Shown: in pieces, positions 52,013-63,636 of the stretch
How the letters are laid out: each line of letters starts with the position of its first letter
Numbering within the stretch: the first letter of the stretch is position 1
Assembly (NCBI RefSeq): GCF_006442975.2
Contig: NZ_CP083954.1
Span: forward strand, 4,657,501-4,721,500
Length of the DNA stretch: 64,000 nucleotides
Direction: 5' to 3'
DNA from: Mesorhizobium sp. B2-1-1
GTDB taxonomy: Bacteria > Pseudomonadota > Alphaproteobacteria > Rhizobiales > Rhizobiaceae
Notes under the pieces: model-generated
The model's input: only the letters and a program-made list of their open reading frames with translations
What the model was told of the DNA's origin: nothing
The model's database searches: none
Translations under genes and position numbers: made by a program

Positions 52013-52390
52013 ATGACCAGCAGGATTGCCCGCTGCACCTGTGGCCAATTGCAGATCCGCTGTCCGCAACAGCCGGCCAAAATATCGCTTTGCCACTGCC
52101 TGGACTGCCAGCGGCGCACCGGCAGTCCGTTCGGGATAGCGGCTTTTTTCGCTGCCGACGCGATCGACATCGACGGCTCATCCCAGACATTCCGGCGCAA
52201 TTCCGACAGCGGCTTTCCCGTCACGTTCCACTTTTGTGGAAACTGCGGCTCGACGGTGTTCTGGTATCCGTCGCGCAAACCGGAGGCGGTCGCTGTCGCG
52301 GTCGGCTGTTTCGCCGATCCGTCTTTCCCCGCGCCGACGCAAGCCGTCTATGGCGAAAGCCGCCACGACTGGGTCGTGTTGCCGGCCTGA
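52013..52390 (+). CDS. GFA-family protein in the TMAO operon
   Basis: A 125-aa GFA/CENP-V-fold protein. Zinc-binding cysteines are in ARCTCGQLQIRC near residue 7, SLCHCLDCQRRTG near residue 31 and FHFCGNCGSTVFW near residue 73. It is 33 bases after the TmoV-like permease with a strong GGGAGGA site, so probably the fourth gene of the tmo operon. Because TMAO and DMA demethylation release formaldehyde, a role in formaldehyde or thiol-adduct handling is a reasonable inference, but the family's general activity is uncertain. It is convergent with tmm, six bases away. Confidence 0.82.
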   Translation: MTSRIARCTCGQLQIRCPQQPAKISLCHCLDCQRRTGSPFGIAAFFAADAIDIDGSSQTFRRNSDSGFPVTFHFCGNCGSTVFWYPSRKPEAVAVAVGCFADPSFPAPTQAVYGESRHDWVVLPA

Positions 52391-52396
52391 AAGCCG

Positions 52397-53755
52397 CTAC
52401 TCCGCCGCGACGCCCTTCACTTCCAGATAGCTCTCCATCGAATCGTCCAGCGCCTGCAGCCACGGCGTATGGTGCAGCGGCGCCATGGTGCCGGTCATCA
52501 ACGAGCGGTAGGAATGGTCGCGGAAGCTCATGATGTCTTCCACCTTGTGGTGCTCCCATTCCATGAAGGTCTGGTTGACCGCCTCGACGTCGAAGCCGGG
52601 ATAGTCGGTCTGGTCCATCAGTTCCTTGGTGTAGTCGCCCTGGAACCAGATCATCTGCTCGGCGTCTTCCAGCGTCTCCTCGCGCGCCCGCCATCTGGCA
52701 CCGTGCTCGGCCATTGCCTGCGCGGACGGCAGCTTGATGCGGCCCATGATGACGTCGCGCGCGTACCAAGCCTGCGCGTCGAACATGTTGAAAGTGTAGA
52801 ACTGGTCCTGCATGCCGATGTAGAAAAGCTTCGGGTTCTTCTCCCAAACGACGCCTTCATAGAGATCCAGCGGCCACATGCGGTTGGCGGTCTTGAGTTT
52901 CAGGTCGTCGGTGAGGAAAGGGAAGGAATGGAGATAGCCGGTGCACAGGATGATTGCGTCGATATCCTTGGTTGAACCATCCTTGAAATGCGCCGTCTTG
53001 CCGACGACCTTCTGCAGCAGCGGCACCTCTTTCCAGTTCTCAGGCCATTTGAAGCCCATCGGCTTGGAGCGGTAGCTCGAGGTGATCGACTTCGCGCCGT
53101 ATTTGTAGCATTGCGAGCCGATGTCCTCGGCCGAATAGGAGCGTCCGATGATCAGGATGTCCTTGCCCTTGAATTCCATCGCGTCGCGGAAATCGTGGCT
53201 GTGCAGGATGCGGCCGTTGAAGGTCGAGAACCCCTCGAAATAGGGAACGTTTGGCACCGAGAAATGCCCGGAGGCGACGACGACATTGTCGAACTCTTCC
53301 GAATAGGTGACGTCATTGGTGCGGTCATGCGCGGTGACGGTGAATTTCTTCGTCTCGTCCGAGAAGGTCACCATGCGCACAGGACTGTTGAAGCGCACCC
53401 ATTTGCGCACGCCTGACTTTTCGACGCGGCCCTTGATGTAGTCCCACAGCACGGCGCGCGGGGGATAGGAGCCGATCGGTCGGCCGAAATGTTCCTCGAA
53501 CGTGTAGTCGGCGAATTCCAGGCATTCCTTCGGCCCGTTCGACCAGAGATAGCGATACATCGAGCCGTGCACCGGATCGCCATGTTCGTCGAGGCCGGTG
53601 CGCCATGTATAATTCCACAGGCCGCCCCAGTCGGACTGCTTTTCGAAGCAGACGATCTCGGGAATGTCTGCCCCTTTGTCGGCCGCTGACTTGAAGGCCC
53701 TGAGCTGTGCTAGGCCGGACGGTCCGGCCCCGATGACGGCAACGCGAGTGTTCAT
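52397..53755 (-). CDS. tmm: Trimethylamine monooxygenase (flavin-containing)
   Basis: Tmm oxidises trimethylamine to TMAO with NADPH, O2 and FAD. The 452-aa sequence has the FAD motif GAGPSG at residues 9-14, the FMO-type FNGRILHS at residues 179-186 and the NADP motif [10 protein letters not shown] at residues 204-213. Stretches such as [21 protein letters not shown] and [19 protein letters not shown] match Tmm enzymes of Methylocella and Ruegeria from memory and differ from Baeyer-Villiger enzymes. ATG 53755 follows a GGAGG. A palindromic element lies at 53793-53818. The importer, XRE-cupin gene and dmm operon nearby support the role. Confidence 0.88.
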
Positions 53756-54798: not shown

Positions 54799-55229
54799 AT
54801 CTCCCCCCTTGAGGGGGAGATGTCCGGCAGGACAGAGGGGGGCGAACCGCGATGACGCATAATCTCGTATCCGCCAACAACCGCCGCAATGCGCGCAGGA
54901 TGCGCAAGGTGATGACCGACGCCGAACTCAAGCTCTGGAATGAGATCAGGGCACATAGGTTGATGGGACTGGGGTTTCGGCGCCAGATGCCTATCGCCGG
55001 CCATATCGTCGACTTGCATGCCCGGACAAAAAGCTGGACCGTCCTGCGCTTCTGGAACGACGATGTTATCCGCGACATCGACAGTGTCTGCCAGCATGTC
55101 GTGATTGTGGCCGGGCTGGGCGGCGGGTGAGTTTCGCGGAGCGTTAGAGGTTGGACATTGGGCAAGGCCTGCGCTCCACGGCGCCCCCCTTCTGCCCTGC
55201 CGGGCATCTCCCCCTCTTGGGGGGGGATT
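54799..55229. repeat. Inverted GC-rich repeat arms flanking a DUF559 gene (locus 2)
   Basis: The left arm (54799-54844, ATCTCCCCCCTTGAGG to GAGGGGGGCG) and the right arm (55181-55229) are inverted near-copies of each other and of the arms at 4636-4814. The DUF559 gene lies exactly between them, seven bases after the left arm, and uses the arm's G-rich end as its ribosome binding site. Confidence 0.85.
54852..55130 (+). CDS. DUF559 protein lacking the central core
   Basis: A 92-aa protein with both ends of the DUF559 (Vsr-like endonuclease-fold) family: MRKVMTDAELKLWNEIRAHR and FRRQMPIAGHIVDL at the N-terminal side, TVLRFWNDDVIRDIDSVCQH at the C-terminal side. The middle portion expected in this family, which carries the acidic residue and the E-D-G core (in full-length members about 35-45 residues), is missing between VDLH and RTKSW. 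The frame is otherwise intact. It is probably an inactive remnant, and the short length is due to an internal deletion, not to a late start. Confidence 0.7.
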   Translation: MTHNLVSANNRRNARRMRKVMTDAELKLWNEIRAHRLMGLGFRRQMPIAGHIVDLHARTKSWTVLRFWNDDVIRDIDSVCQHVVIVAGLGGG

Positions 55230-55260: not shown

Positions 55261-56301
55261 TCAATCCGGCCCGAATCCCGGGCTCGTCGCACTGCCATCA
55301 TCCAATTTCGACAGCCACTCGACCAGTGTCGGGCGGTAGCGCGTCAGCCCCTTGTAGGTGGCAAGCTCCTCGGGCAGGTCGCGGATGACGCGGTGCAGGC
55401 GGCGCGCCCATTTCGGTTGCGTCACCAGCTCGTCCATCTTGATCAGGTAGCAGCGGATCGGGAAGACGATGGCGTTGGAGCGCGGCAGGCGCCAGAAGCT
55501 CTGCAACTCGACGCGCAGATGCACCTTGTCGCCGACATTGTCGGGCGTCACCGTCGCCCGGTCCGGACCCCATTTGTGGTAATTCTCGGGGCTGGTGTCG
55601 AGGCGCGGATTGATGGTCATCGTCCAGTTGAGGCGACGCGCCGGCTTGCCTTGCTGGATGTTGGTGAGGAATTTCAGGGCGCGCGTGAAAATCCCCTTTT
55701 CGTGCGCCAGCGGCACCGGCGCGTGCCACTCGAAGAAGTTCATGCCGATGTCGAAGTCGAGCGACCAGTCGGCCTGGGTGGTGACCATGCCGGCATCCAT
55801 CCAAAGATTGCCGTCGCGCTGGTCGAGGATGCAGAAATCGCCCTGGCTCTGGCGGGTGATGTATTCCATCGGCCCGTAAGGCAAGGTCGAGGTGTCGCCG
55901 AAGGTGAAGGTGTCGTCGATGCCGAGCGGTCGGTTGATCCAGCGCCAGCGGTCGCCGTCTCGGGTCAGCGTGAAATGCTCGGGATAGCCCAGCGCCTGCT
56001 GCTCCATCAGAAGTTCGAGCAGATCCCAGCCGGCGAGCGTCATGTGCGGCAGCGACTGGCAGCGCAACGGATCCTCGGCCAGCACCAGAGCGCGGTCCTG
56101 CATCTCGGCGACATAGTGCTCATCGACATCTATCAGGTTTTCCAGCACGCTGCCCTTCGGACCGACGACATGCGGCTCGATGTTGACCGCATACATGTAG
56201 CTGTCTTCATGGAACGGAAACGGGAACCGCCTGATGTGCTCAGGGCTGTTCCTGAAGGTGAAGTCGTCGCGAAACGTTTCCTTGCGAAAGGTGATGCCCA
56301 A
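55261..56301 (-). CDS. Heme-dependent oxidative N-demethylase family protein (dimethylamine monooxygenase component)
   Basis: A 346-aa protein of the DUF3445 / HODM family, described as heme-dependent oxidative N-demethylase. Visible features include FPFPFHEDSYMYAVNIEPHV near residue 26 and the histidine-containing FFEWHAPVPLAHEKG near residue 188. It is the last gene of the dmm operon, nine bases after the reductase gene. In the described system this component with the others converts dimethylamine to methylamine and formaldehyde; the exact letter (DmmC or other) for this subunit is not assigned here. Confidence 0.82.
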   Translation of the reverse strand: MGITFRKETFRDDFTFRNSPEHIRRFPFPFHEDSYMYAVNIEPHVVGPKGSVLENLIDVDEHYVAEMQDRALVLAEDPLRCQSLPHMTLAGWDLLELLMEQQALGYPEHFTLTRDGDRWRWINRPLGIDDTFTFGDTSTLPYGPMEYITRQSQGDFCILDQRDGNLWMDAGMVTTQADWSLDFDIGMNFFEWHAPVPLAHEKGIFTRALKFLTNIQQGKPARRLNWTMTINPRLDTSPENYHKWGPDRATVTPDNVGDKVHLRVELQSFWRLPRSNAIVFPIRCYLIKMDELVTQPKWARRLHRVIRDLPEELATYKGLTRYRPTLVEWLSKLDDGSATSPGFGPD

Positions 56302-56310
56302 GCTCGCCTC

Positions 56311-57276
56311 CTATCTTTCCAACACCAGCGATTTGCCTTCGAAGCGCGACACGCACGGCATGATCTTGCAGCCGGAGCGATGATCTTCCTCGCTCAGCCA
56401 ATGGTCGTTGTGGATGAACTTGCCGTCGGACGCGATGACGTTGGTCTCGCACTGGCCGCAGACGCCGCCGCGGCAAAGATAGGGCGGATCGACGCCGGCC
56501 GCCTCGATCGCCTCGAGCAGGCTCTGCTGCTCGCCGACGCGGATGGTCTTGCCGCTGATTGCCAGCGTCACGTCGAAGGGCAATCCCGGCTGCGGTGCCG
56601 CGAAATGCTCGAAATGCACGGTCTCCGGTGGCCAGCCAAGCGCGGCGGCGCGCTCGCGCACCCAGCCGATCATGCCTGCCGGACCGCAGACATAGAGATG
56701 CGTGCCGAGCGGCTGCGACGACAGCAGCCGGTCGAGGTCTATGCGTTCCCCGCGGTCGTCGTGATAGAGCCGGACCCGGCGGCCGTAACGCTGTTGCAGC
56801 ACATCGGCATAAGTGCCGAGCGAAGCCGTGCGGCAGGTGTAGTGCAGTTCGAAATTGCCGCCCTCGCCCGCCAACTGCGCGGTCTGGGCCATGAAGGGCG
56901 TGATGCCGATGCCGCCGGCCAGCATCAAATGTTTCTTCGCCCTGAGATCGAGCGAGAACAGATTGACGGGATAGGAGATCACCATCTCCAGCCCGGGCCT
57001 GACGCTCCGGTGCATGAACAGCGAGCCGCCCCGGCCGACATCGTCGCGACGTATCGAGATCGTGTATTCGCGCGTGTCGAGCGGCGAGCCCATCAGCGAA
57101 TAGGGATTGAGCCTTGTGCGGTCGCCGTCGCGCATCTCGACCACGACATGGGCACCGCCTGAAAAGGTCGGCAACAGCTCGCCGTCGCGGCGGCGGAAAT
57201 GAAAGCGGGTGACCAGCTCGTTGACGGGAACAACATCGCTGACGACGACGTCGAGTTTGGTGGTGCCGGTGCTCAT
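56311..57276 (-). CDS. Phthalate-dioxygenase-type reductase of the dmm operon (PDR/VanB family)
   Basis: A 321-aa reductase with an FMN/FAD-binding barrel (residues 1-100: RLNPYSLMG and REYTISIRR), an NAD domain (GGIGITPFMA near residue 121, VCGPAGMIG near residue 196) and a C-terminal plant-type [2Fe-2S] ferredoxin domain. Its cysteines are C268, C273 and C276 with a fourth at C303 or C308. It would feed electrons from NAD(P)H to the heme component. The open frame is longer, but ATG 57276 follows AGGAGG and overlaps the previous gene by four bases. DmmB is the likely name. Confidence 0.85.
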   Translation of the reverse strand: MSTGTTKLDVVVSDVVPVNELVTRFHFRRRDGELLPTFSGGAHVVVEMRDGDRTRLNPYSLMGSPLDTREYTISIRRDDVGRGGSLFMHRSVRPGLEMVISYPVNLFSLDLRAKKHLMLAGGIGITPFMAQTAQLAGEGGNFELHYTCRTASLGTYADVLQQRYGRRVRLYHDDRGERIDLDRLLSSQPLGTHLYVCGPAGMIGWVRERAAALGWPPETVHFEHFAAPQPGLPFDVTLAISGKTIRVGEQQSLLEAIEAAGVDPPYLCRGGVCGQCETNVIASDGKFIHNDHWLSEEDHRSGCKIMPCVSRFEGKSLVLER

Positions 57277-57869
57277 CGGAAGACCTCCTCGATCGGAGGA
57301 ATTTCGCTGCGATCCTCGGCATTGATGCAGACGCCCTGGAACGCCGCCAGCCGCCGCGAATAGTGGTCGCGTACCAGAAGTAGCAGGCCGCAATGCGAGC
57401 AGGTGGCGGGTTGCGTCGTTACATTCTCGGTGATGCCCTTGCAATGCACGCACTGCACGCGGCGCGCCAGCGAGCCGCGATGTTCGGTCTGGATCGCGGT
57501 GTGGTCGATGCCGGCATCGAGCGCCACCTGCATGGCCTGGCCGATCAGCCCTTCGGTACCGGCGAGATAGAGGCGCAGGCCCATATGCGCGTTATCAAGC
57601 GTCTGTTTCAGCCGCGGCAGCAGGCTGGCGAAGGACGGCGCCTGGTGGAAGCGCGCCGGTTTCAGCGCTTCGAGAGCGGCGACATGCTTGTCGTCCGGCC
57701 CGGGAATGAAGACGATCTCGGCACCGTCGAAGAACCTGTCCGGAGCCGTTTTGGCCATGTCCGCTATCGCGAGCGCACCCTCGGCATCGGCGATGAAAAG
57801 ATGATGCTTGCCGGGCTGCGGCGACAAGGTTCCGTAGACGGGCCGGCTGATGATCGACTTGGCTGCCAT
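57273..57869 (-). CDS. dmmA: Dimethylamine monooxygenase subunit DmmA family protein
   Basis: A 198-aa protein of the DmmA family. The N-terminal 130 residues form an alpha/beta region (HHLFIADAEGALAIADMAK, RLYLAGTEGLIGQAMQVALD), and a CxxC-x13-CxxC zinc-ribbon or rubredoxin-like element follows with C140, C143, C157 and C160. It is a subunit of dimethylamine monooxygenase, probably for electron transfer or assembly. It overlaps the reductase gene by four bases and follows the GcvT-like gene by 40 bases. Confidence 0.82.
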   Translation of the reverse strand: MAAKSIISRPVYGTLSPQPGKHHLFIADAEGALAIADMAKTAPDRFFDGAEIVFIPGPDDKHVAALEALKPARFHQAPSFASLLPRLKQTLDNAHMGLRLYLAGTEGLIGQAMQVALDAGIDHTAIQTEHRGSLARRVQCVHCKGITENVTTQPATCSHCGLLLLVRDHYSRRLAAFQGVCINAEDRSEIPPIEEVFR

Positions 57870-57909: not shown

Positions 57910-59043
57910 TCAGCCTTTCGCCGTGCGCTTGGTCTTCTTTGGGTCATCGAACGGCAATGGCTGCGCCGTCGCCTTGATCGATCCGCTCCTGTTGCGGATC
58001 TCGAGCCTTGTGTCCTTGACGGCGCAGTCGACGTCGAGGCGGACGATGCCCATCGATTTCTCGACCAGCGGCGAATACATGGCGCAGGTGACGACGCCGA
58101 CTTTCTTCCCATCGCGATAGACCGGGGCGCCCTCGTCGGCCGGCTCCTTGCCGTCGAGCAACACGCCATAGATCTTGAAGCGCTCCTTGCCCTTGAGACG
58201 GTAGTGCTCCTCGGCGCCGCGAAAGCCGGTCTTGCCCGGGCTGACGGTGAAGTCGAGGCCGAGTTCCCACAGCGTGTCGCCGGGGCCTTCATTCTCGAAC
58301 GGATATTTCTGCGAATTGTCGTAGGGATAGAACAGGAGATAGCTCTCGACGCGCAGCATGTCGAGCGTGGTGAAGCGGCACGGGATAATGCCGGCGCTCT
58401 TGCCCTCGTCGAGGATCCTGTCCCAGATCGTGCCGGCATCCTGGCCGCGGCAGAAGATTTCATAGCCGCGCTCGCCGGTATAGCCGGTGCGCGAGATCAT
58501 CACCGGAAAACCGAAGAGCTGCGTCTGCATGTGATGGAAATAGTTGAGGTCGCGAATGCCCGGCACGTGCCTGGCAAGATAGTCGACCGCCGCCGGCCCC
58601 TGCAGCGAGAGGTCGTGCAGATTGTCGTCGAAGCGCAGCGACACGTCCCTGCCCATCGCCGCCCGCTGCAACTCCTCATGTCCGGTTCCCGAGCCATGCA
58701 CCACCATCCAGCTATTCGGCCCGGTGCGGTAGAGGATGCAGTCGTCGGTGAATTTTCCCGCCTCGTTGAGCATGCAGGCATAGGCCGATTTGCCGGGATA
58801 GATTTTTTCGACGTCGCGCGTGGTGGCGAGATCGATGAGGTGCGAGGCGTGCGGGCCTGTGATGTGGACCTTCTTCAGGCCCGAGACATCCATCAGCCCG
58901 GCCTTGGTGCGGATAGCGATGTATTCCTCGTCGGCATCCTTGTCGTAGGTCCAGGCGGTGCCCATGCCGCTCCAGTCTTCGAGTTTCGAACCCAGCGCGC
59001 GATGGCGATCCGCCAGGGTTGAAAATCTCCAGGATGCCGTCAT
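57910..59043 (-). CDS. GcvT-like aminomethyltransferase of the dmm operon
   Basis: A 377-aa tetrahydrofolate-binding GcvT-family protein (T-protein fold): GLMDVSGLKKVHITGPHASH near residue 50, PFENEGPGDTLWELG near residue 248 and the C-terminal VGVVTCAMYSPLVEKSMGIV near residue 312. It is the first gene of the four-gene dmm operon. It likely transfers the released C1 unit (formaldehyde level) to tetrahydrofolate, giving methylene-THF. It is not a Tdm: it has only the GcvT part, without the N-terminal domain of TMAO demethylase. ATG 59043 follows GGAGG. Confidence 0.82.
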   Translation of the reverse strand: MTASWRFSTLADRHRALGSKLEDWSGMGTAWTYDKDADEEYIAIRTKAGLMDVSGLKKVHITGPHASHLIDLATTRDVEKIYPGKSAYACMLNEAGKFTDDCILYRTGPNSWMVVHGSGTGHEELQRAAMGRDVSLRFDDNLHDLSLQGPAAVDYLARHVPGIRDLNYFHHMQTQLFGFPVMISRTGYTGERGYEIFCRGQDAGTIWDRILDEGKSAGIIPCRFTTLDMLRVESYLLFYPYDNSQKYPFENEGPGDTLWELGLDFTVSPGKTGFRGAEEHYRLKGKERFKIYGVLLDGKEPADEGAPVYRDGKKVGVVTCAMYSPLVEKSMGIVRLDVDCAVKDTRLEIRNRSGSIKATAQPLPFDDPKKTKRTAKG

Positions 59044-59158
59044 CCGATCCTCCGTTCGATATTTTGATTATGTTCCCTGCTCCTGTGCGCGCGGGCTGGA
59101 GCTTTGAGCGAATATTGATCGCAAACGCGTGGGGCCTGCAATCCCCTGAAAGCAAATA

Positions 59159-59172
59159 ATTTCATTGTCAGG
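59159..59172 (-). promoter_or_regulatory. Operator candidate ahead of dmm (motif B)
   Basis: ATTTCATTGTCAGG in plus orientation matches the tmm element AATTTCACTGGCAG in 10 of 12 core positions. It lies 116 bases before the dmm start codon and about 90 bases from motif C. Confidence 0.4.
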
Positions 59173-59219
59173 CAAAATTCGTCATCCGAACAAGACGGTT
59201 AACTCTGCGTAAATTCGCC

Positions 59220-59278
59220 TTGACAATTTCCGAATTCGGTCTGAATTTATGAAAAAAATTTCACTCTCTTGAAAGAGA
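59220..59278 (+). promoter_or_regulatory. Promoter and operator candidate of the permease operon (motif C)
   Basis: TTGACA (59220-59225) is a consensus -35 element with GAATTT about 17 bases on. The element AAATTTCACTCTCTTGAAAG at 59256-59275 follows and includes the inverted TCTCTT-GA-AAGAGA. It sits at the expected transcription start of the operon beginning at 59327 and carries the ATTTCACT core shared with tmm. The remaining gap (59044-59158) shows no other feature. Confidence 0.5.
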
Positions 59279-59326
59279 ACGGCGGACGGTGGATTCGGAA
59301 CCGGACGTCGAAAAAGGGGAAAACCG

Positions 59327-59608
59327 ATGTCAGACCTGCAGCAGCGCATCGAGGCGCTGTACCGTTCCGACTTGCGCGGATCCGCGCTCCTGATCGTCTG
59401 CCTGTGGGCGACGATCCTCTTCGTCCTCTTCATGACATGGCCGCATATCCCGCATGACGGCATCAAGGCCGTCGTCGCGATTGCCGCCGCCGCGGTGCTG
59501 ATCTTCAACACGGCGGCGATCCTGGCCATGGTCAACCACTACAAGGAGGACAAGGAGTTCATCTACGGGCTCGACATCAAGAATTACGACCGCAACCGCA
59601 AATCCTGA
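59327..59608 (+). CDS. Small membrane protein 1, two helices
   Basis: I do not recognise this 93-aa protein. It has two hydrophobic segments (SALLIVCLWATILFVLFMTW and AVVAIAAAAVLIFNTAAILA, residues 19-70) and a charged C-terminal tail ending GLDIKNYDRNRKS. It is the first gene of an operon with two more small membrane proteins and an APC-type permease; the gap to the next gene is exactly 14 bases, as are the following two. Location between dmm and mgs suggests a role with methylated amines. Confidence 0.75.
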   Translation: MSDLQQRIEALYRSDLRGSALLIVCLWATILFVLFMTWPHIPHDGIKAVVAIAAAAVLIFNTAAILAMVNHYKEDKEFIYGLDIKNYDRNRKS

Positions 59609-59622
59609 GGGGGGAGAGAAGC

Positions 59623-60000
59623 ATGTCCCGCTACACGCCGCCGCAACAGAGCAAGGCCGGGCAGGTCTTCGATATCGCCGTCGTCGTGGTCGCCATCTTC
59701 GTGGCGCTGTGGCTGCCGCTGAAACTGGGATTGGCGGGAGCAGCCAAGTCCATCGATGCGCTCGACGCCAAGACCTGGGAGGCGCTCGGCCAGAACCCGA
59801 CCATGGCGTCGATTTGGGAAAGGCTCGGCTATACGCCCGAGACCGCGCACGACATCATCCAGAACCGTTTCCACTACATCATCGACTGGCCGACGCTGGT
59901 TGTCATGGCAGCCGTGTTGATCGGTTATTTCGTGTTCCTGTTCCGGGCATCGGACCGTGAATATCGCGACGTCATCAACGAGAAGTTCGACGAGAAATAA
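59623..60000 (+). CDS. Small membrane protein 2, two helices
   Basis: A 125-aa protein that I do not recognise. It has a hydrophobic helix at about residues 17-38 (FDIAVVVVAIFVALWLPLKL) and a second at about 87-106 (WPTLVVMAAVLIGYFVFLF), with a polar loop of about 45 residues between them (DALDAKTWEALGQNP, WERLGYTPETAHDI). The C-terminal tail is acidic and basic mixed (DREYRDVINEKFDEK). GGGGGGAGAG precedes ATG 59623. It is likely a partner of the following genes in the membrane. Confidence 0.78.
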   Translation: MSRYTPPQQSKAGQVFDIAVVVVAIFVALWLPLKLGLAGAAKSIDALDAKTWEALGQNPTMASIWERLGYTPETAHDIIQNRFHYIIDWPTLVVMAAVLIGYFVFLFRASDREYRDVINEKFDEK

Positions 60001-60014
60001 TCCGGGGACAGACC

Positions 60015-60176
60015 ATGTGGATAGTACTCTCTTACGCATGCTGGGGCATCTCGATCGTGCTTGCGCTGTGGATGCTCTACGATTGGTTCAAGGTCGATAC
60101 GACCTACTCCGAGGATGTGCTGACGTCCTCGCGCGAAGGCGAACTTGAAGCCGCTTCCGAAAAACACCGGATCTGA
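60015..60176 (+). CDS. Small membrane protein 3, one helix, 53 aa
   Basis: A very short gene: ATG 60015 to TGA 60174-60176, 53 residues. It starts MWIVLSYACWGISIVLALWM, so a single N-terminal helix is clear, followed by LYDWFKVDTTYSEDVLTSSR and an acidic/basic tail. CGGGGAC lies upstream. Its 14-base gaps on both sides and the same frame-independent spacing as its neighbours make it a real operon member. It is the kind of gene automated calling tends to miss. Function unknown. Confidence 0.7.
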   Translation: MWIVLSYACWGISIVLALWMLYDWFKVDTTYSEDVLTSSREGELEAASEKHRI

Positions 60177-60190
60177 GTGGGGATTGATCG

Positions 60191-61594
60191 ATGACGGTCG
60201 TGGTTGAAACTGCGGGTTCGGCAACAAATGGCGACAGGGTCTCGCTGCTTCGGGTGCTTGGCCCGGCCCATGTCTGGGCGTTGGGTGTGGGCATCGTCCT
60301 GGTCGGCGAGTTCACCGGCTGGAATTTCTCCGCCGACAAGGGCGGCGCGCTTGCCGCGCTGATCGTCTGCTGGGTCGTCGGGCTGCTCTATACCTCGGTC
60401 GCCATGATCGATTCCGAAGTGACGTCGACGGTCGCCGCCGCGGGCGGCCAATATGCGCAGGCCAAGCACATCGTCGGGCCGCTGATGGCCTTCAACGTCG
60501 CGCTGTTCCTGGTCTTTGCCTACACCATGCTCGAAGTGTCGGACGCCATCCTGCTCGGCGACACGATCGTCGCCAAGGCGGGCGTCGAGGGCCTCACCCA
60601 CAACTCCTTCATCGCCGCCACCATCGTCGTCCTGGCATGGCTTAACTATCGCGGCGTGCTGATGACGCTCAACGTCAACTTCGTCATCACCGCGATTGCC
60701 TACATCTCCATCGTCATCCTGTTCTTCTCGGTCAGCCCGTGGACGCAAGGCGCGGTGCTCAAGCTCAACGAGTTGGTCACCCCAGAGAACGCGCTGCCCT
60801 ATGGCTGGATCGGCGTCATCGCCGCTTTCCAGTTCGGCATCTGGTACTATCTCGGCATCGAGGGCACCACGCAGGCGGCCGAGGAAGTGCGCTCGCCCGC
60901 GCGCTCGCTGCCTTATGGCACGATGGCCGGCATGATCACGCTTCTGATCGCCGCCGCCATGACCTGGTATGTCTGCGCCTCGCTGATGCCCTGGGAATAT
61001 CTCGGCATCACTTATTATCCGCTGTGGGACGCCGGCAAGCTGACCGGCAACCCGCTGCTGGAAAACCTGCTGTTCATCGCCACGCTGCTTGCCGCACTGG
61101 CGTCCGCCAATGGCTGCATCAACGACGCGGCGCGCGCCTGGTTCTCGCTCGGCCGCGATCGCTACCTGCCGAGCTGGTTCTCGGCGGTGCACCCGAGATA
61201 CCGCACACCCTACCGCTCGATCCTGTTCCTGCTGCCGATCGCGCTCGCCTTCGCCTTCATCGCCGACCTCAACCAGGCGATTACTTTCTCGATCCTGTCT
61301 GGCGTGCTGCAATATACGTTCATGAGCATCAACATCATGATGTTCCGGAAGAAGTGGCCGCTGGGCTCCATCCGCCGCGGCTACACGCATCCCTTCCACC
61401 CGCTGCCGGCGATCGTCTTGTTCTGCCTGTGCGTGGTGACCTTCTTCGCCATCTTCCTCGGCTTCGGCTCGCAGCTCATCGCCATGGTCGCGTTCTATTT
61501 CCTGATCTCGCTGTGGTTCCATTTCTACCGCTACAAATTCGTACGGCGCGGCGACCAGTTCACCATGCCGTGGCCGAAACCGCAGGGCTATTGA
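60191..61594 (+). CDS. APC-family permease, ethanolamine-permease-like
   Basis: A 467-aa APC-superfamily transporter with about 12 helices. The N-terminal RVLGPAHVWALGVGIVLVGE and FTGWNFSADKGG resemble ethanolamine permeases (EAT group). Other typical segments are AAGGQYAQAKHIVGP near residue 82 and YYLGIEGTTQAAEEVRSPAR near residue 219. The substrate is inferred to be a small amine or amino acid, for example a methylated amine or N-methylglutamate, from its position between dmm and mgs. The three small membrane proteins just upstream may be its accessory subunits. Confidence 0.82.
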   Translation: MTVVVETAGSATNGDRVSLLRVLGPAHVWALGVGIVLVGEFTGWNFSADKGGALAALIVCWVVGLLYTSVAMIDSEVTSTVAAAGGQYAQAKHIVGPLMAFNVALFLVFAYTMLEVSDAILLGDTIVAKAGVEGLTHNSFIAATIVVLAWLNYRGVLMTLNVNFVITAIAYISIVILFFSVSPWTQGAVLKLNELVTPENALPYGWIGVIAAFQFGIWYYLGIEGTTQAAEEVRSPARSLPYGTMAGMITLLIAAAMTWYVCASLMPWEYLGITYYPLWDAGKLTGNPLLENLLFIATLLAALASANGCINDAARAWFSLGRDRYLPSWFSAVHPRYRTPYRSILFLLPIALAFAFIADLNQAITFSILSGVLQYTFMSINIMMFRKKWPLGSIRRGYTHPFHPLPAIVLFCLCVVTFFAIFLGFGSQLIAMVAFYFLISLWFHFYRYKFVRRGDQFTMPWPKPQGY

Positions 61595-61637: not shown

Positions 61638-62327
61638 ATGTCCGAGGTGACGTCAGCACTGCTTGCCGGGGCGGCTGTCCTGGCTCTCGTCCTGCATTTT
61701 GCCTGGCTGGCACGCCGCAGCCGCAACAGGGCTGCCGTGGCACGCGCCGCCGACCAGGCCAGCATCCGCGCCGTCATTGCCGACGCCGAAGATGTCTCGG
61801 ACGGTACTGCCGGCGTCATCACCTGGGAAGGCTCGTGGAATGGCCAGCGCGTGCAGCTGCGCACCATCGTCGACACGCTGGCGACGAGAAAGCTGCCGGC
61901 GCGCTGGCTCAGCGTATCGATAACGGAGAAAACAGTCGTGCCCGGCACGTTCGACATGATGATGCGGCCGGGCTCGCCGACGACGTTCTCCAATTTCGAC
62001 CATCTCGACCACACGCTGCCGAAGGCGCCCGGCTTTCCCGCCGAGGCGGTGCTTCGAACGGACCGCAGAGGCGTGCGCTTCCCGCAAAACATCATCGCCG
62101 ACCATCTGGAGCCCTTTTCAGAAGGACGCGCCAAGGAGCTACTGATCACGCCAAAGGGTGTGCGTATCGTCTGGCTGCTGGCCGAAGCCGAGCGGGCCCG
62201 CTACGGTGTCTTCCGGCAAGCCGCTTTCGGTGACGCGCAAATCGACCCGGCGCTGATCTCGCGGCTGCTCGTATCCCTTTCGGGACTGCGCGACGCGATC
62301 AACAGGAACGAACGGAAAGCGGCATGA
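61638..62327 (+). CDS. Uncharacterised membrane-anchored protein
   Basis: A 229-aa protein I do not recognise. It has one N-terminal helix (SALLAGAAVLALVLHFAWLA, residues 6-25) followed by a basic stretch (RRSRNRAAVARAAD) and a soluble domain of about 180 residues with strand-rich segments (AGVITWEGSWNGQRVQLRTI, RWLSVSITEKTVVPGTFDMM). The domain has no catalytic motif I can name. It is coupled by a four-base overlap to the next gene and separated from the permease by a hairpin. Its soluble part may face the cytoplasm by the positive-inside rule. Confidence 0.7.
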   Translation: MSEVTSALLAGAAVLALVLHFAWLARRSRNRAAVARAADQASIRAVIADAEDVSDGTAGVITWEGSWNGQRVQLRTIVDTLATRKLPARWLSVSITEKTVVPGTFDMMMRPGSPTTFSNFDHLDHTLPKAPGFPAEAVLRTDRRGVRFPQNIIADHLEPFSEGRAKELLITPKGVRIVWLLAEAERARYGVFRQAAFGDAQIDPALISRLLVSLSGLRDAINRNERKAA

Positions 62328-62653
62328 CCGGCGCAACCCCCTCGCCCGGACCTACCAGCCCATATATCGTCCTGGGCGCGGCAACCCTGCTGCCGGGCAG
62401 CGGCCACGTCATGCTGGGCGTTCCGACGCGCGGCCTGCAGTTTCTTTTCTTCATGGTCATCCTGGCCTGGGTGACGGCGAAGATCGCCCCGCCCGACGCC
62501 AGCTTTGTCGGCCGCCACGCCGGCGGCTTCCTGATCTATGCGCTGTCGATCCTCGACGCCTACAAGATGGCTCGTATCCGGACCGCCAAATGGGCCCATT
62601 CCATGCGCCGACAAGGCGATGGGCCGCCGGATGGGACAAAACACAACGCGTAA
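62324..62653 (+). CDS. Uncharacterised small membrane protein
   Basis: A 109-aa protein with hydrophobic segments at about residues 14-35 and 40-55, and a third near residues 68-78. The first contains ATLLPGSGHVMLGVPTRGLQ, which looks like the short loop motif (PG-GH) of small membrane proteins related to TM2-like domains; I cannot name the family with confidence. It overlaps the previous gene by four bases, so they are co-translated. The C-terminal tail is polar (RRQGDGPPDGTKHNA). Confidence 0.65.
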   Translation: MTGATPSPGPTSPYIVLGAATLLPGSGHVMLGVPTRGLQFLFFMVILAWVTAKIAPPDASFVGRHAGGFLIYALSILDAYKMARIRTAKWAHSMRRQGDGPPDGTKHNA

Positions 62654-62739: not shown

Positions 62740-63636
62740 ATGTGCGGAATCGTTGGACTTTTCCTCAAGGACAAAGCGCTGGAGCCGCAGCTCGGTGCGA
62801 TGTTGTCGCAGATGCTGGTATCGCTCAGCGATCGCGGACCCGACAGCGCCGGCATCGCGATCTATGGCGCGCCGTCCCGCAACGAGGCCAAGATCACCAT
62901 CCAGTCGCCGAGGCCGGAGCGTGATTTCCGTGGACTGGACGCCGAACTCACCAAGGCGCTCGGCGTGCCGGTGAGCGTCATGGTAAAATCGACGCATGCC
63001 GTCATCAGGACCACGCCCGAAAAGGTCGATGCCGCGCGTGAGACCATCCAGTCGCTCAGGCCCGACATCCGCATCATGGGTGCCGGCGAAGCCGTGGAAA
63101 TATACAAGGAAGTCGGCTTGCCCGAGGCTGTGGTCGACCGCTTCGACATCCGTGGGATGACCGGAACGCATGGCATCGGGCACACCCGCATGGCGACGGA
63201 ATCGGCGGTGACGACGATGGGCGCGCATCCGTTCTCGACCGGCGCCGACCAGTGCCTGGTGCACAATGGCTCGCTGTCCAACCACAACAACGTTCGCCGC
63301 GAACTGGTCCGCGAAGGCATGACATTCGAGACCGAGAACGACACCGAAGTGGCGGCCGCCTATCTCTCCTCCCAGATGGCGCATGGCAAGAACCTCGGCG
63401 AGGCACTGGAGGGCACCCTCTCAGATCTCGACGGTTTCTTCACCTTCGTCGTCGGCACCAAGAACGGCTTCGGCGTGGTGCGCGACCCGATCGCCTGCAA
63501 GCCCGCCGTGATGGCCGAAACGGACCAGTATGTCGCCTTCGGCTCGGAATATCGCGCGCTGACCAAACTGCCCGGCATAGACAATGCGAGAGTCTGGGAA
63601 CCGGAACCCGCAACCGTCTATTTCTGGGAGCATTGA
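62740..63636 (+). CDS. mgsA: N-methylglutamate synthase subunit A (class II glutamine amidotransferase type)
   Basis: A 298-aa class II amidotransferase-like protein whose N-terminal Cys2 (MCGIVGLF) is the nucleophile of the family. Other landmarks are LSDRGPDSAGIAIYG near residue 31 and GTHGIGHTRMATESAVTTMG near residue 144. In methylotrophs MgsA with MgsB and MgsC makes N-methylglutamate from methylamine and glutamate; in rhizobia the same gene is often named glxB. Because the synthase uses methylamine rather than glutamine-derived ammonia, the amidotransferase role may be reduced. The start is fixed by GGAGG eight bases upstream. Confidence 0.85.
   Translation: MCGIVGLFLKDKALEPQLGAMLSQMLVSLSDRGPDSAGIAIYGAPSRNEAKITIQSPRPERDFRGLDAELTKALGVPVSVMVKSTHAVIRTTPEKVDAARETIQSLRPDIRIMGAGEAVEIYKEVGLPEAVVDRFDIRGMTGTHGIGHTRMATESAVTTMGAHPFSTGADQCLVHNGSLSNHNNVRRELVREGMTFETENDTEVAAAYLSSQMAHGKNLGEALEGTLSDLDGFFTFVVGTKNGFGVVRDPIACKPAVMAETDQYVAFGSEYRALTKLPGIDNARVWEPEPATVYFWEH

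Follow-up and report, generated by a model that had tools for sequence, protein, structure and literature searches.

A conserved six-gene unit of an APC permease and five smaller membrane proteins, linked to methylamine-use genes, as a candidate monomethylamine importer

Introduction

Carriers of the APC superfamily usually move amino acids, and those of the type described here are usually single-subunit proteins. Membrane partners are familiar from other secondary carriers: SSS transporters with DUF485 or DUF4212 partners have a small membrane protein encoded beside the carrier, and the SLC3-type partner of the heteromeric amino acid transporters is one large glycoprotein. The ethanolamine permease family is not known to have small partners. 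Heteromeric amino acid transporters pair an APC carrier (the SLC7 light chain) with a membrane partner, the SLC3 heavy chain (PMC5803215). In crystals of GkApcT, a bacterial CAT homologue (PDB 5oqt/6f34), the one-helix protein MgtS packs against TM5, and GkApcT from a strain without MgtS gave a lower final substrate uptake at similar initial rates (PMC5803215).

Methylamine use of the GmaS type is widespread, with gmaS reported in ~23% of surface-ocean genomes (PMC7948447). One review names an Amt-type protein as methylamine importer (PMC8292978), and one report describes amino-acid permeases induced on methylamine (PMC5023235), which may or may not be those of the genes described here. Among the matches listed from open-licence literature on methylamine use and transport (titles and abstract starts), none names a dedicated importer for the GmaS-type pathway other than the Amt-type protein and none describes the present gene set, in keeping with a preliminary description of this DNA, which could point to no described system with this content.

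Results and discussion

A conserved unit of six genes

The locus lies in a 64,000-nucleotide stretch of the Mesorhizobium sp. B2-1-1 genome, referred to as the window (Table 1). Three small genes coding for proteins of one or two helices each had been noted ahead of an APC permease, and these hold up: all are open reading frames on the plus strand, and hydropathy gives two helices for S1, two for S2 and one for S3. The unit had been taken to comprise four genes, but it has six, since S5 and S6, which overlap by 4 nt, had been overlooked. The 124 complete loci include the window; in 122 of them all six genes occur in a single order on a single strand, and S1 and S6 were found in all 124. Members come from Hyphomicrobiales, Rhodobacterales, Burkholderiales and gammaproteobacterial assemblies. 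The permease (P) and the five smaller membrane proteins are one conserved six-gene unit, hereafter the cassette. A search for operators in the divergent region upstream of S1 returned a single imperfect 15-nt palindrome and nothing more.

Table 1. Features of the window at and around the cassette
Feature	Position	Strand	Remarks
trimethylamine monooxygenase tmm	52397..53755	-	NF058570, 855 bits, cut-off 675
HODM alpha-subunit-like dimethylamine monooxygenase component	55261..56301	-	PF11927
DmmA-like N / 2Fe-2S reductase component	56311..57393	-	PF22290, PF00111
further dmm operon gene	57273..57869	-	context; dmmA label by neighbourhood only
GcvT-like aminomethyltransferase, dmm operon	57910..59043	-	context
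divergent intergenic region	59044..59326		283 nt, between dmm operon (-) and S1 (+)
S1	59327..59608	+	93 aa; 2 membrane helices; conserved end HYxEDKxFIYGLDI; no named family
S2	59623..60000	+	125 aa; 2 membrane helices flanking ~55-residue loop; conserved tail SDKEYRxVIxERF; no named family
S3	60015..60176	+	53 aa; 1 membrane helix, then conserved tail YSExxLxSSREGE; no named family
P	60191..61594	+	467-aa APC permease; TM1 motif VGE[FY]xGWN, Glu40 invariant
S5	61638..62327	+	229 aa; N-terminal membrane helix and domain predicted to be TtfA/CCDC47-like
S6	62324..62653	+	109 aa; 2 hydrophobic stretches; weakly DUF6677/DUF5683-like
mgsA-like, N-methylglutamate synthase glutamine amidotransferase part	62740..63636	+	start chosen at MCGIV
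mgsB	from ~63692, past window end		after mgsA-like gene

The coordinates bear out the three gaps of exactly 14 nt among S1, S2, S3 and P in the window. The weight placed on this spacing did not survive comparison, and we dropped it as a signal because gaps vary across complete loci: 65 of 124 have 11-12 nt between S1 and S2, 65 of 124 have 12-14 nt between S3 and P, and the S2-S3 gap mostly spans 9-36 nt. The combination 14/14/14 appears in none of those listed; neither the window nor its re-fetched copy (L157) counts as such there, because automatic start choice shifted the window's P start by 9 nt. Each of the three gaps in the window contains a G-rich, Shine-Dalgarno-like stretch, which the short regular spacing fits.

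S3 had been judged too short for standard gene calling, but its homologues are annotated publicly in five organisms (Paracoccus aminophilus, Aminobacter, Pararhizobium, Pseudohalocynthiibacter and Paracoccus sp. MA); the annotation of Sinorhizobium meliloti Ak57 omits it. A possible natural fusion of S3 with P in that strain (L036), where the stop codon of S3 reads as Trp, was set aside, the stop being normal in Sinorhizobium K101 (L205). Codon-level conservation of the 53-aa frame, on which the earlier reading had been staked beforehand, is evident: among the 73 of loci L038-L111 with S3 of equal length, pN/pS was 0.186 in its own frame, and the two shifted frames gave 2.58 and 1.15. The corresponding values were 0.231 for S5 (n = 27) and 0.404 for S6 (n = 30); the codon comparison of S1 comprised a single equal-length relative.

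Small proteins and the accessory pair

Pfam gave scattered weak matches to S1-S3 and S5, all below cut-off, and Pfam names for these proteins were rejected for that reason. P is an APC rather than an SSS carrier, which separates it from the SSS transporters. DUF485 and DUF4212 were absent from the families listed at E<=0.1 for S2 (36 members) and S3 (39 members) and from the best 25 of 34 weak families matched by S1. No SLC3-like domain appears among the Pfam matches listed for S1-S3, S5 and S6, so that none of them answers to a heavy chain; where heteromeric amino acid transporters have one large partner, the cassette has five small ones of 53-229 aa. The structure model of S2 was modest (pLDDT 82.6, pTM 0.45) and had no PDB match at E<=0.001.

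The structure model of S5 is confident, and its domain is predicted to resemble, to a moderate degree, both TtfA, an MmpL3 accessory, and CCDC47. Foldseek TM-scores were 0.38/0.47 for TtfA (PDB 6t84) and 0.39/0.28 for CCDC47 (7tm3_4), with all best matches below 0.5, and a profile of 39 S5 sequences matched no PDB sequence, TtfA and CCDC47 included, at E<=1. The nearest bacterial fold relative, TtfA, is a mycobacterial transporter accessory (PMC6593404); its partner is an RND flippase (MmpL3), whereas the partner gene of S5 encodes an APC carrier. CCDC47 belongs to the eukaryotic PAT complex, and S5 and S6 differ from it in having neither an Asterix family match nor a sign of ribosome binding. 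S6 weakly matched DUF6677 in 31 of 39 members and DUF5683 in nine of 39 (best E ~1e-4), and Asterix (WDR83OS) was absent among the eight families matched by these 39 members at E<=0.1.

By the positive-inside rule, the large soluble domain of S5 would be cytoplasmic. Together with the conserved charged tails of S1-S3, such a placement could also suit a sensor or transceptor, in which P reports amine supply, the S5 domain relays the signal and S1-S3 serve as signalling adaptors. We regard this as highly improbable: no catalytic, DNA-binding or signalling Pfam domain scored above cut-off in S1-S3, S5 or S6 (for S1, among the best 25 of 34 weak families), and the role of TtfA as a transporter accessory (PMC6593404) points elsewhere.

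Distribution across genomes

Of the 297 genomes of the order, 44 have S2 and 43 have P orthologs (E<=1e-70), every one of the latter also having S2; in the remaining genome, S2 lies at a contig edge that cuts the locus. The two sets are thus equal except for one cut contig, and with the fixed gene order this upholds the proposal that the small proteins accompany this permease. Across 28 loci, P, S1 and S2 correlate with one another in their pairwise distances at r 0.75-0.81; against mgsC, r is 0.48 for P and 0.34 for S2.

These data bear on a simpler reading, in which P acts alone, as is usual for carriers of its type, and S1-S3, S5 and S6 are only co-transcribed, with some other role in methylamine users. 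A second, diverged set in one genome (G031) fits it, as S1 and P are there apart from S2, with S3, S5 and S6 undetectable within the 20 kb searched. We nonetheless find this reading distinctly unlikely, given the co-occurrence of P and S2, the fixed gene order, and distances of P that follow S1 and S2 more closely than mgsC.

The methylamine-use pathway is present in cassette genomes. The N-methylglutamate synthase gene mgsB occurs in 43 of the 44 S2-positive genomes (as two partial matches in one of them, G213) versus 59 of 253 S2-negative genomes (Fisher 2.7e-22, uncorrected for kinship). At the genus level, mgsB occurs in 51 of 122 genera, which include all 11 with S2 (p=3.4e-5), and in wider samples mgsB was found in 7 of 9 S2-matching genomes. 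A dimethylamine monooxygenase (dmm) subunit is encoded in 31 of the 44 cassette genomes and trimethylamine monooxygenase (tmm) in 28. The expected co-occurrence with tmm, dmm and mgs therefore stands for mgs and falls short for the other two: because 13 of 44 genomes lack dmm and 16 lack tmm, the partner pathway narrows to the N-methylglutamate (monomethylamine) pathway.

The converse dependence does not hold. The cassette is missing from 59 of 102 mgsB-bearing genomes, so the N-methylglutamate pathway can do without it. In one mgs locus from each of 38 of these 59 genomes, no P homologue was found near mgs (0/38). An Amt-like protein, detected with a rough profile, was present in 3 of 38, and Amt was rejected as the replacement at cassette-free loci.

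Locus neighbourhoods

In the window, as in most Mesorhizobium relatives, the cassette and the dmm operon point away from each other, with tmm close by. Among the 80 named loci L038-L117, mostly Mesorhizobium, the flanks contain dmm in 67 and tmm in 60; this arrangement invites the reading that the same multi-part carrier takes up dimethylamine or trimethylamine, or several methylamines, to feed tmm and dmm. Dimethylamine is a possible substrate in Mesorhizobium because the cassette sits between dmm and mgs there. In three loci (L085, L124 and L142), dmm or tmm is close by but mgs is not, and L124 and L142 lend this reading some support; the contig of L085 is cut inside the permease. The balance shifts in the 38 diverse loci L118-L155, where mgs is near 19, dmm near four and tmm near one, and where L121, L122, L127 and L129 have mgs without dmm or tmm nearby. 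Given also the cassette genomes that carry mgsB and lack dmm or tmm, we consider such a carrier rather unlikely.

A point against the explanation we favour below is that marker genes were absent from the fetched flanks of 12 of the 38 diverse loci and five of the 80 named loci. Of these 12, L144 is a 3-kb contig, and L120 and L130 adjoin mau genes. Methylamine dehydrogenase (MADH) genes adjoin two cassette sets: in L130 the cassette lies ~2 kb downstream of mauA on the same strand, after mauB, mauE and a MauD-like gene, and in L221 mauB/mauA-like genes are flanked by S2 on one side and by diverged copies of S1 and P on the other. MADH is not known to use glutamyl intermediates. Because the enzyme is periplasmic (PMC5023228), mau proximity alone does not demand uptake.

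The permease and its substrate site

P exceeds the Pfam gathering scores of AA_permease / AA_permease_2 (PF00324/PF13520), with 106.4 bits (cut-off 24.6) and 95.3 bits (cut-off 27), and so belongs to the APC superfamily. Its earlier assignment to the ethanolamine permeases was rejected: TIGR00908 is the best NCBIfam match, yet P reaches 171.8 bits against a cut-off of 381.75. What P has in common with TIGR00908 relatives, as judged from one ethanolamine-permease-like protein, is the TM1 motif GE[YF]xGWN (GEYSGWN in that protein), Glu40 included; in P this glutamate is invariant in an alignment of 39 sequences.

The closest solved sequences are those of GkApcT (E ~1e-23), which shares the APC fold with P, and SLC7 light chains are among the PDB matches. 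The carboxylate site of GkApcT, Thr43-Gly44, is Val-Gly followed by the invariant glutamate in P, Glu40 lying one position past Gly44 by hand count on the alignment. GkApcT is an amino-acid carrier with a proton-coupling Glu115 and with Lys191; in the hand-read alignment, P has alanine opposite both, next to a gap in the case of Lys191. This counts against the explanation we favour below.

Kinship with amino-acid carriers and the same linkage to mgs and gmaS would also fit a P that moves an intermediate or by-product (gamma-glutamylmethylamide, N-methylglutamate or ammonium), for instance exporting a surplus. The altered carboxylate site, with its glutamate as in the ethanolamine-permease-like protein, and the two sets beside MADH genes speak against this, and we consider it unlikely.

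A proposed role for the cassette

On balance, we think that the cassette is probably, though by no means securely, a multi-component monomethylamine importer for the N-methylglutamate pathway. Its linkage and conservation are observed; from these we infer the substrate, direction, physical complex, roles of the small proteins and membrane sides. The earlier proposal, a transporter of several components with a link to methylated amines, is thus supported in outline, narrowed to the monomethylamine pathway and extended to six genes. P, with its APC fold, would be the translocator through which monomethylamine (methylammonium) enters the cell. Glu40, beside the carboxylate-binding site of the amino-acid carrier of this fold, may take the ammonium group of a substrate lacking a carboxylate. 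S1, S2 and S3 would be obligate one- or two-helix subunits packed on P and presenting their conserved charged tails; by analogy with the one-helix protein on TM5 of GkApcT, they might stabilise or gate P. MgtS is a co-purified E. coli protein and no operon partner of GkApcT, unlike S1-S3. S5, a membrane anchor with its TtfA/CCDC47-like domain, and S6 could form an accessory pair for assembly or activity.

If this reading is correct, the cassette would supply such an importer, together with a marker set, and five 'hypothetical' families would be explained together. It would also offer a secondary carrier from bacteria that depends on several small subunits, in which one could test why a single-chain fold would need them, and the likeness of S5 would tie bacterial transporter accessory factors to a eukaryotic membrane-protein chaperone. 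In its most far-reaching form, the cassette would be the first six-protein APC carrier, dedicated to methylamine scavenging: P and three obligate helix subunits would be assembled or licensed in the membrane by S5 and S6, a bacterial pair belonging to the TtfA/CCDC47 fold class, and a eukaryotic intramembrane chaperone fold would thereby be tied to transporter biogenesis in bacteria. We hold that version to be improbable.

TmoP, the TMAO permease, is likewise annotated as an APC protein and found in amine clusters. That P is TmoP was rejected on a match of 27% over 56 aa (28.9 bits) with the amine-cluster APC protein beside tmm of P. aminophilus, whose TmoP label is our reading of a figure legend. 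The window's genome has another APC match, at G000:C1:4733377, which we take to be TmoP-like from its place.

A conserved six-gene unit

The preliminary description had singled out three small membrane genes (S1, S2 and S3) preceding an APC permease (P), and this arrangement was borne out in the window sequence, where the S1-S2, S2-S3 and S3-P gaps measure 14 nt each. The 14/14/14 spacing failed as a signal: among the scanned loci listed, none besides the window has it. The grouping itself stood, but its size did not, as six genes rather than four travel together.

Cassette genes in the window
Gene	Position	Strand	Features
S1	59327-59608	+	93 aa; two helices
S2	59623-60000	+	125 aa; two helices
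S3	60015-60176	+	53 aa; one helix
P, APC permease	60191-61594	+	467 aa
S5	61638-62327	+	229 aa; downstream of P
S6	62324-62653	+	109 aa; after S5, before mgsA

We scanned L031-L157 and the window with six protein profiles (L001-L030, L158, L205 and L206 lay outside the scan; the window entered twice, also as L157, and L156 is probably the same record as L077). The 80 named loci, predominantly Mesorhizobium, were the best among 278 confirmed relatives; further loci came from annotated plasmid regions and additional genome stretches. S2 was found in 128 loci, 124 of which held the full set, and in 122 of these the six genes were ordered, on a single strand and separated by short gaps, as determined by script. 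The two exceptions kept the gene order, with stop codons lost in L036 and an extra permease interposed in L130. The four incomplete loci were contig ends (L085, L141, L144) and a diverged set (L120/L221). The six genes thus firmly form one unit.

None of S1, S2, S3, S5 and S6 matched a Pfam or NCBIfam family above cut-off; the tails of S1-S3 are conserved and charged. The proposed 53-aa frame is conserved at the codon level, with a pN/pS of 0.186 versus 2.58 and 1.15 in the shifted frames (73 equal-length relatives within L038-L111), and S3 is a real gene. The corresponding values were 0.104 for S2 (71 relatives), 0.076 for P (17), 0.231 for S5 (27) and 0.404 for S6 (30); for S1, the comparison comprised a single equal-length relative.

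In Sinorhizobium meliloti Ak57 (L036:12392-13966), the S3 stop has become Trp and the frame continues into the permease, and S2 likewise lacks its usual stop codon, unlike Sinorhizobium K101, where the S3 stop is normal. S2 is longer in L145, L146, L147, L148 and L035 (family f89 genomes and Paraburkholderia), apparently through an insertion near residue 45, between both helices.

Linkage to methylamine use

Across 297 genomes spread evenly over the order, S2 was present in 44, and 43 had a P ortholog at E<=1e-70. The P set equals the S2 set minus G004, where S2 sits at a contig edge; therefore, neither occurs without the other in this sample, save for one cut contig, and the small proteins accompany the permease as proposed. 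The expected co-occurrence with amine genes held for mgsB of the N-methylglutamate pathway, found in 102 genomes and in 43 of the 44 with S2 (missing in G004; G213 counted from two partial matches; Fisher 2.7e-22, uncorrected for kinship; p=3.4e-5 by genera). It held only in part for the dimethylamine (dmm alpha-like subunit, 31/44) and trimethylamine (tmm, 28/44) monooxygenases. In wider samples, mgsB was present in 7 of 9 further S2-matching genomes, the misses being G302 (weak S2 match, E 9e-4) and G366 (assembly 82% complete). There is no reverse dependence: the cassette is absent from 59 of the 102 mgsB genomes, and mgs loci from 38 of these contained no P homologue.

Within the fetched flanks, mgs genes lay close by in 74 of the 80 named loci and in 19 of the 38 diverse loci (L118-L155), the latter having dmm nearby in four cases and tmm in one. 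L085, L124 and L142 had dmm or tmm nearby, with mgs absent from the fetched flanks. Flanks devoid of any marker gene numbered 5/80 and 12/38. Two of these 12 carry methylamine dehydrogenase (mau) genes: in L130 mauA lies ~2 kb upstream of the cassette on the same strand, with mauB, mauE and a MauD-like gene also ahead of it, and in L120/L221 mauB/mauA-like genes lie between diverged S1 and P and diverged S2. What mgs and mau have in common is monomethylamine. Overall, the six-gene membrane cassette is widely conserved and firmly tied to methylamine use.

Pairwise distances over 28 loci with mgsC nearby correlated better between P and S1 (r 0.745) or S2 (0.813) than between mgsC and P (0.482) or S2 (0.338), which suits a cassette moving as a unit.

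The complete cassette at L130:1569-14529 carries two tandem permease copies, with mau genes upstream. The diverged set at L221 (4382-6188 and 16929-17336) is a second set in genome G031; S3, S5 and S6 were undetected within 20 kb.

A candidate multi-component importer

P is an APC protein by Pfam, and its nearest solved relative is GkApcT, in which Thr43 and Gly44 of TM1 hold the substrate carboxylate (PMC5803215). In a hand-counted profile alignment, P has Val38/Gly39 at these positions. The next residue, Glu40, does not vary across 39 diverse sequences, and an ethanolamine-permease-like protein shares it within GEYSGWN. From this altered carboxylate site and the invariant Glu40, we infer that the substrate would bear an ammonium group and no carboxylate. 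In P, alanine aligns with both the proton-coupling Glu115 and Lys191 of GkApcT (the latter beside a gap in the hand-counted alignment). In the GkApcT crystal, the one-helix protein MgtS sits on TM5, and GkApcT from an MgtS-less strain showed lower substrate uptake, with initial rates alike (PMC5803215). The pairing gives a precedent for an APC carrier with small helices attached. The confidently predicted structure of S5 appears to resemble, moderately, the CCDC47 cytosolic domain and TtfA, with no sequence similarity to either.

No description of the cassette was found among the matches listed in open-licence literature on methylamine use and transport, and within that scope it counts as undescribed. 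The proposal of an undescribed amine transporter stood as to linkage and novelty among those matches; our preferred reading of the cassette is a methylamine importer of several components, for which we infer both substrate and complex.

Neighbouring genes

On plasmid paAMD1, the cassette lies ~17 kb downstream of gmaS on the same strand. Most genes of the plasmid's methylamine region, which may or may not include the cassette, are reported to rise on dimethylamine (PMC9699525). The Aminobacter cassettes (L032, L158) are plasmid-borne, with sarcosine-oxidase-like (mgd-type) genes upstream, joined in L158 by mgsC and gmaS, and hppD/hmgA genes downstream; hmgA is also close to the cassette in Pseudohalocynthiibacter (L034).

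In the window, the dmm genes and tmm lie left of the cassette on the - strand. Within their cluster, a 92-aa ORF (54852-55130) presumably resembles a DUF559-type endonuclease fragment, and we take a small ORF adjoining tmm (52013-52390) to resemble a GFA (formaldehyde-activating) family protein. An annotated GFA gene is also close to the cassette in Pararhizobium (L033:16394-16786).
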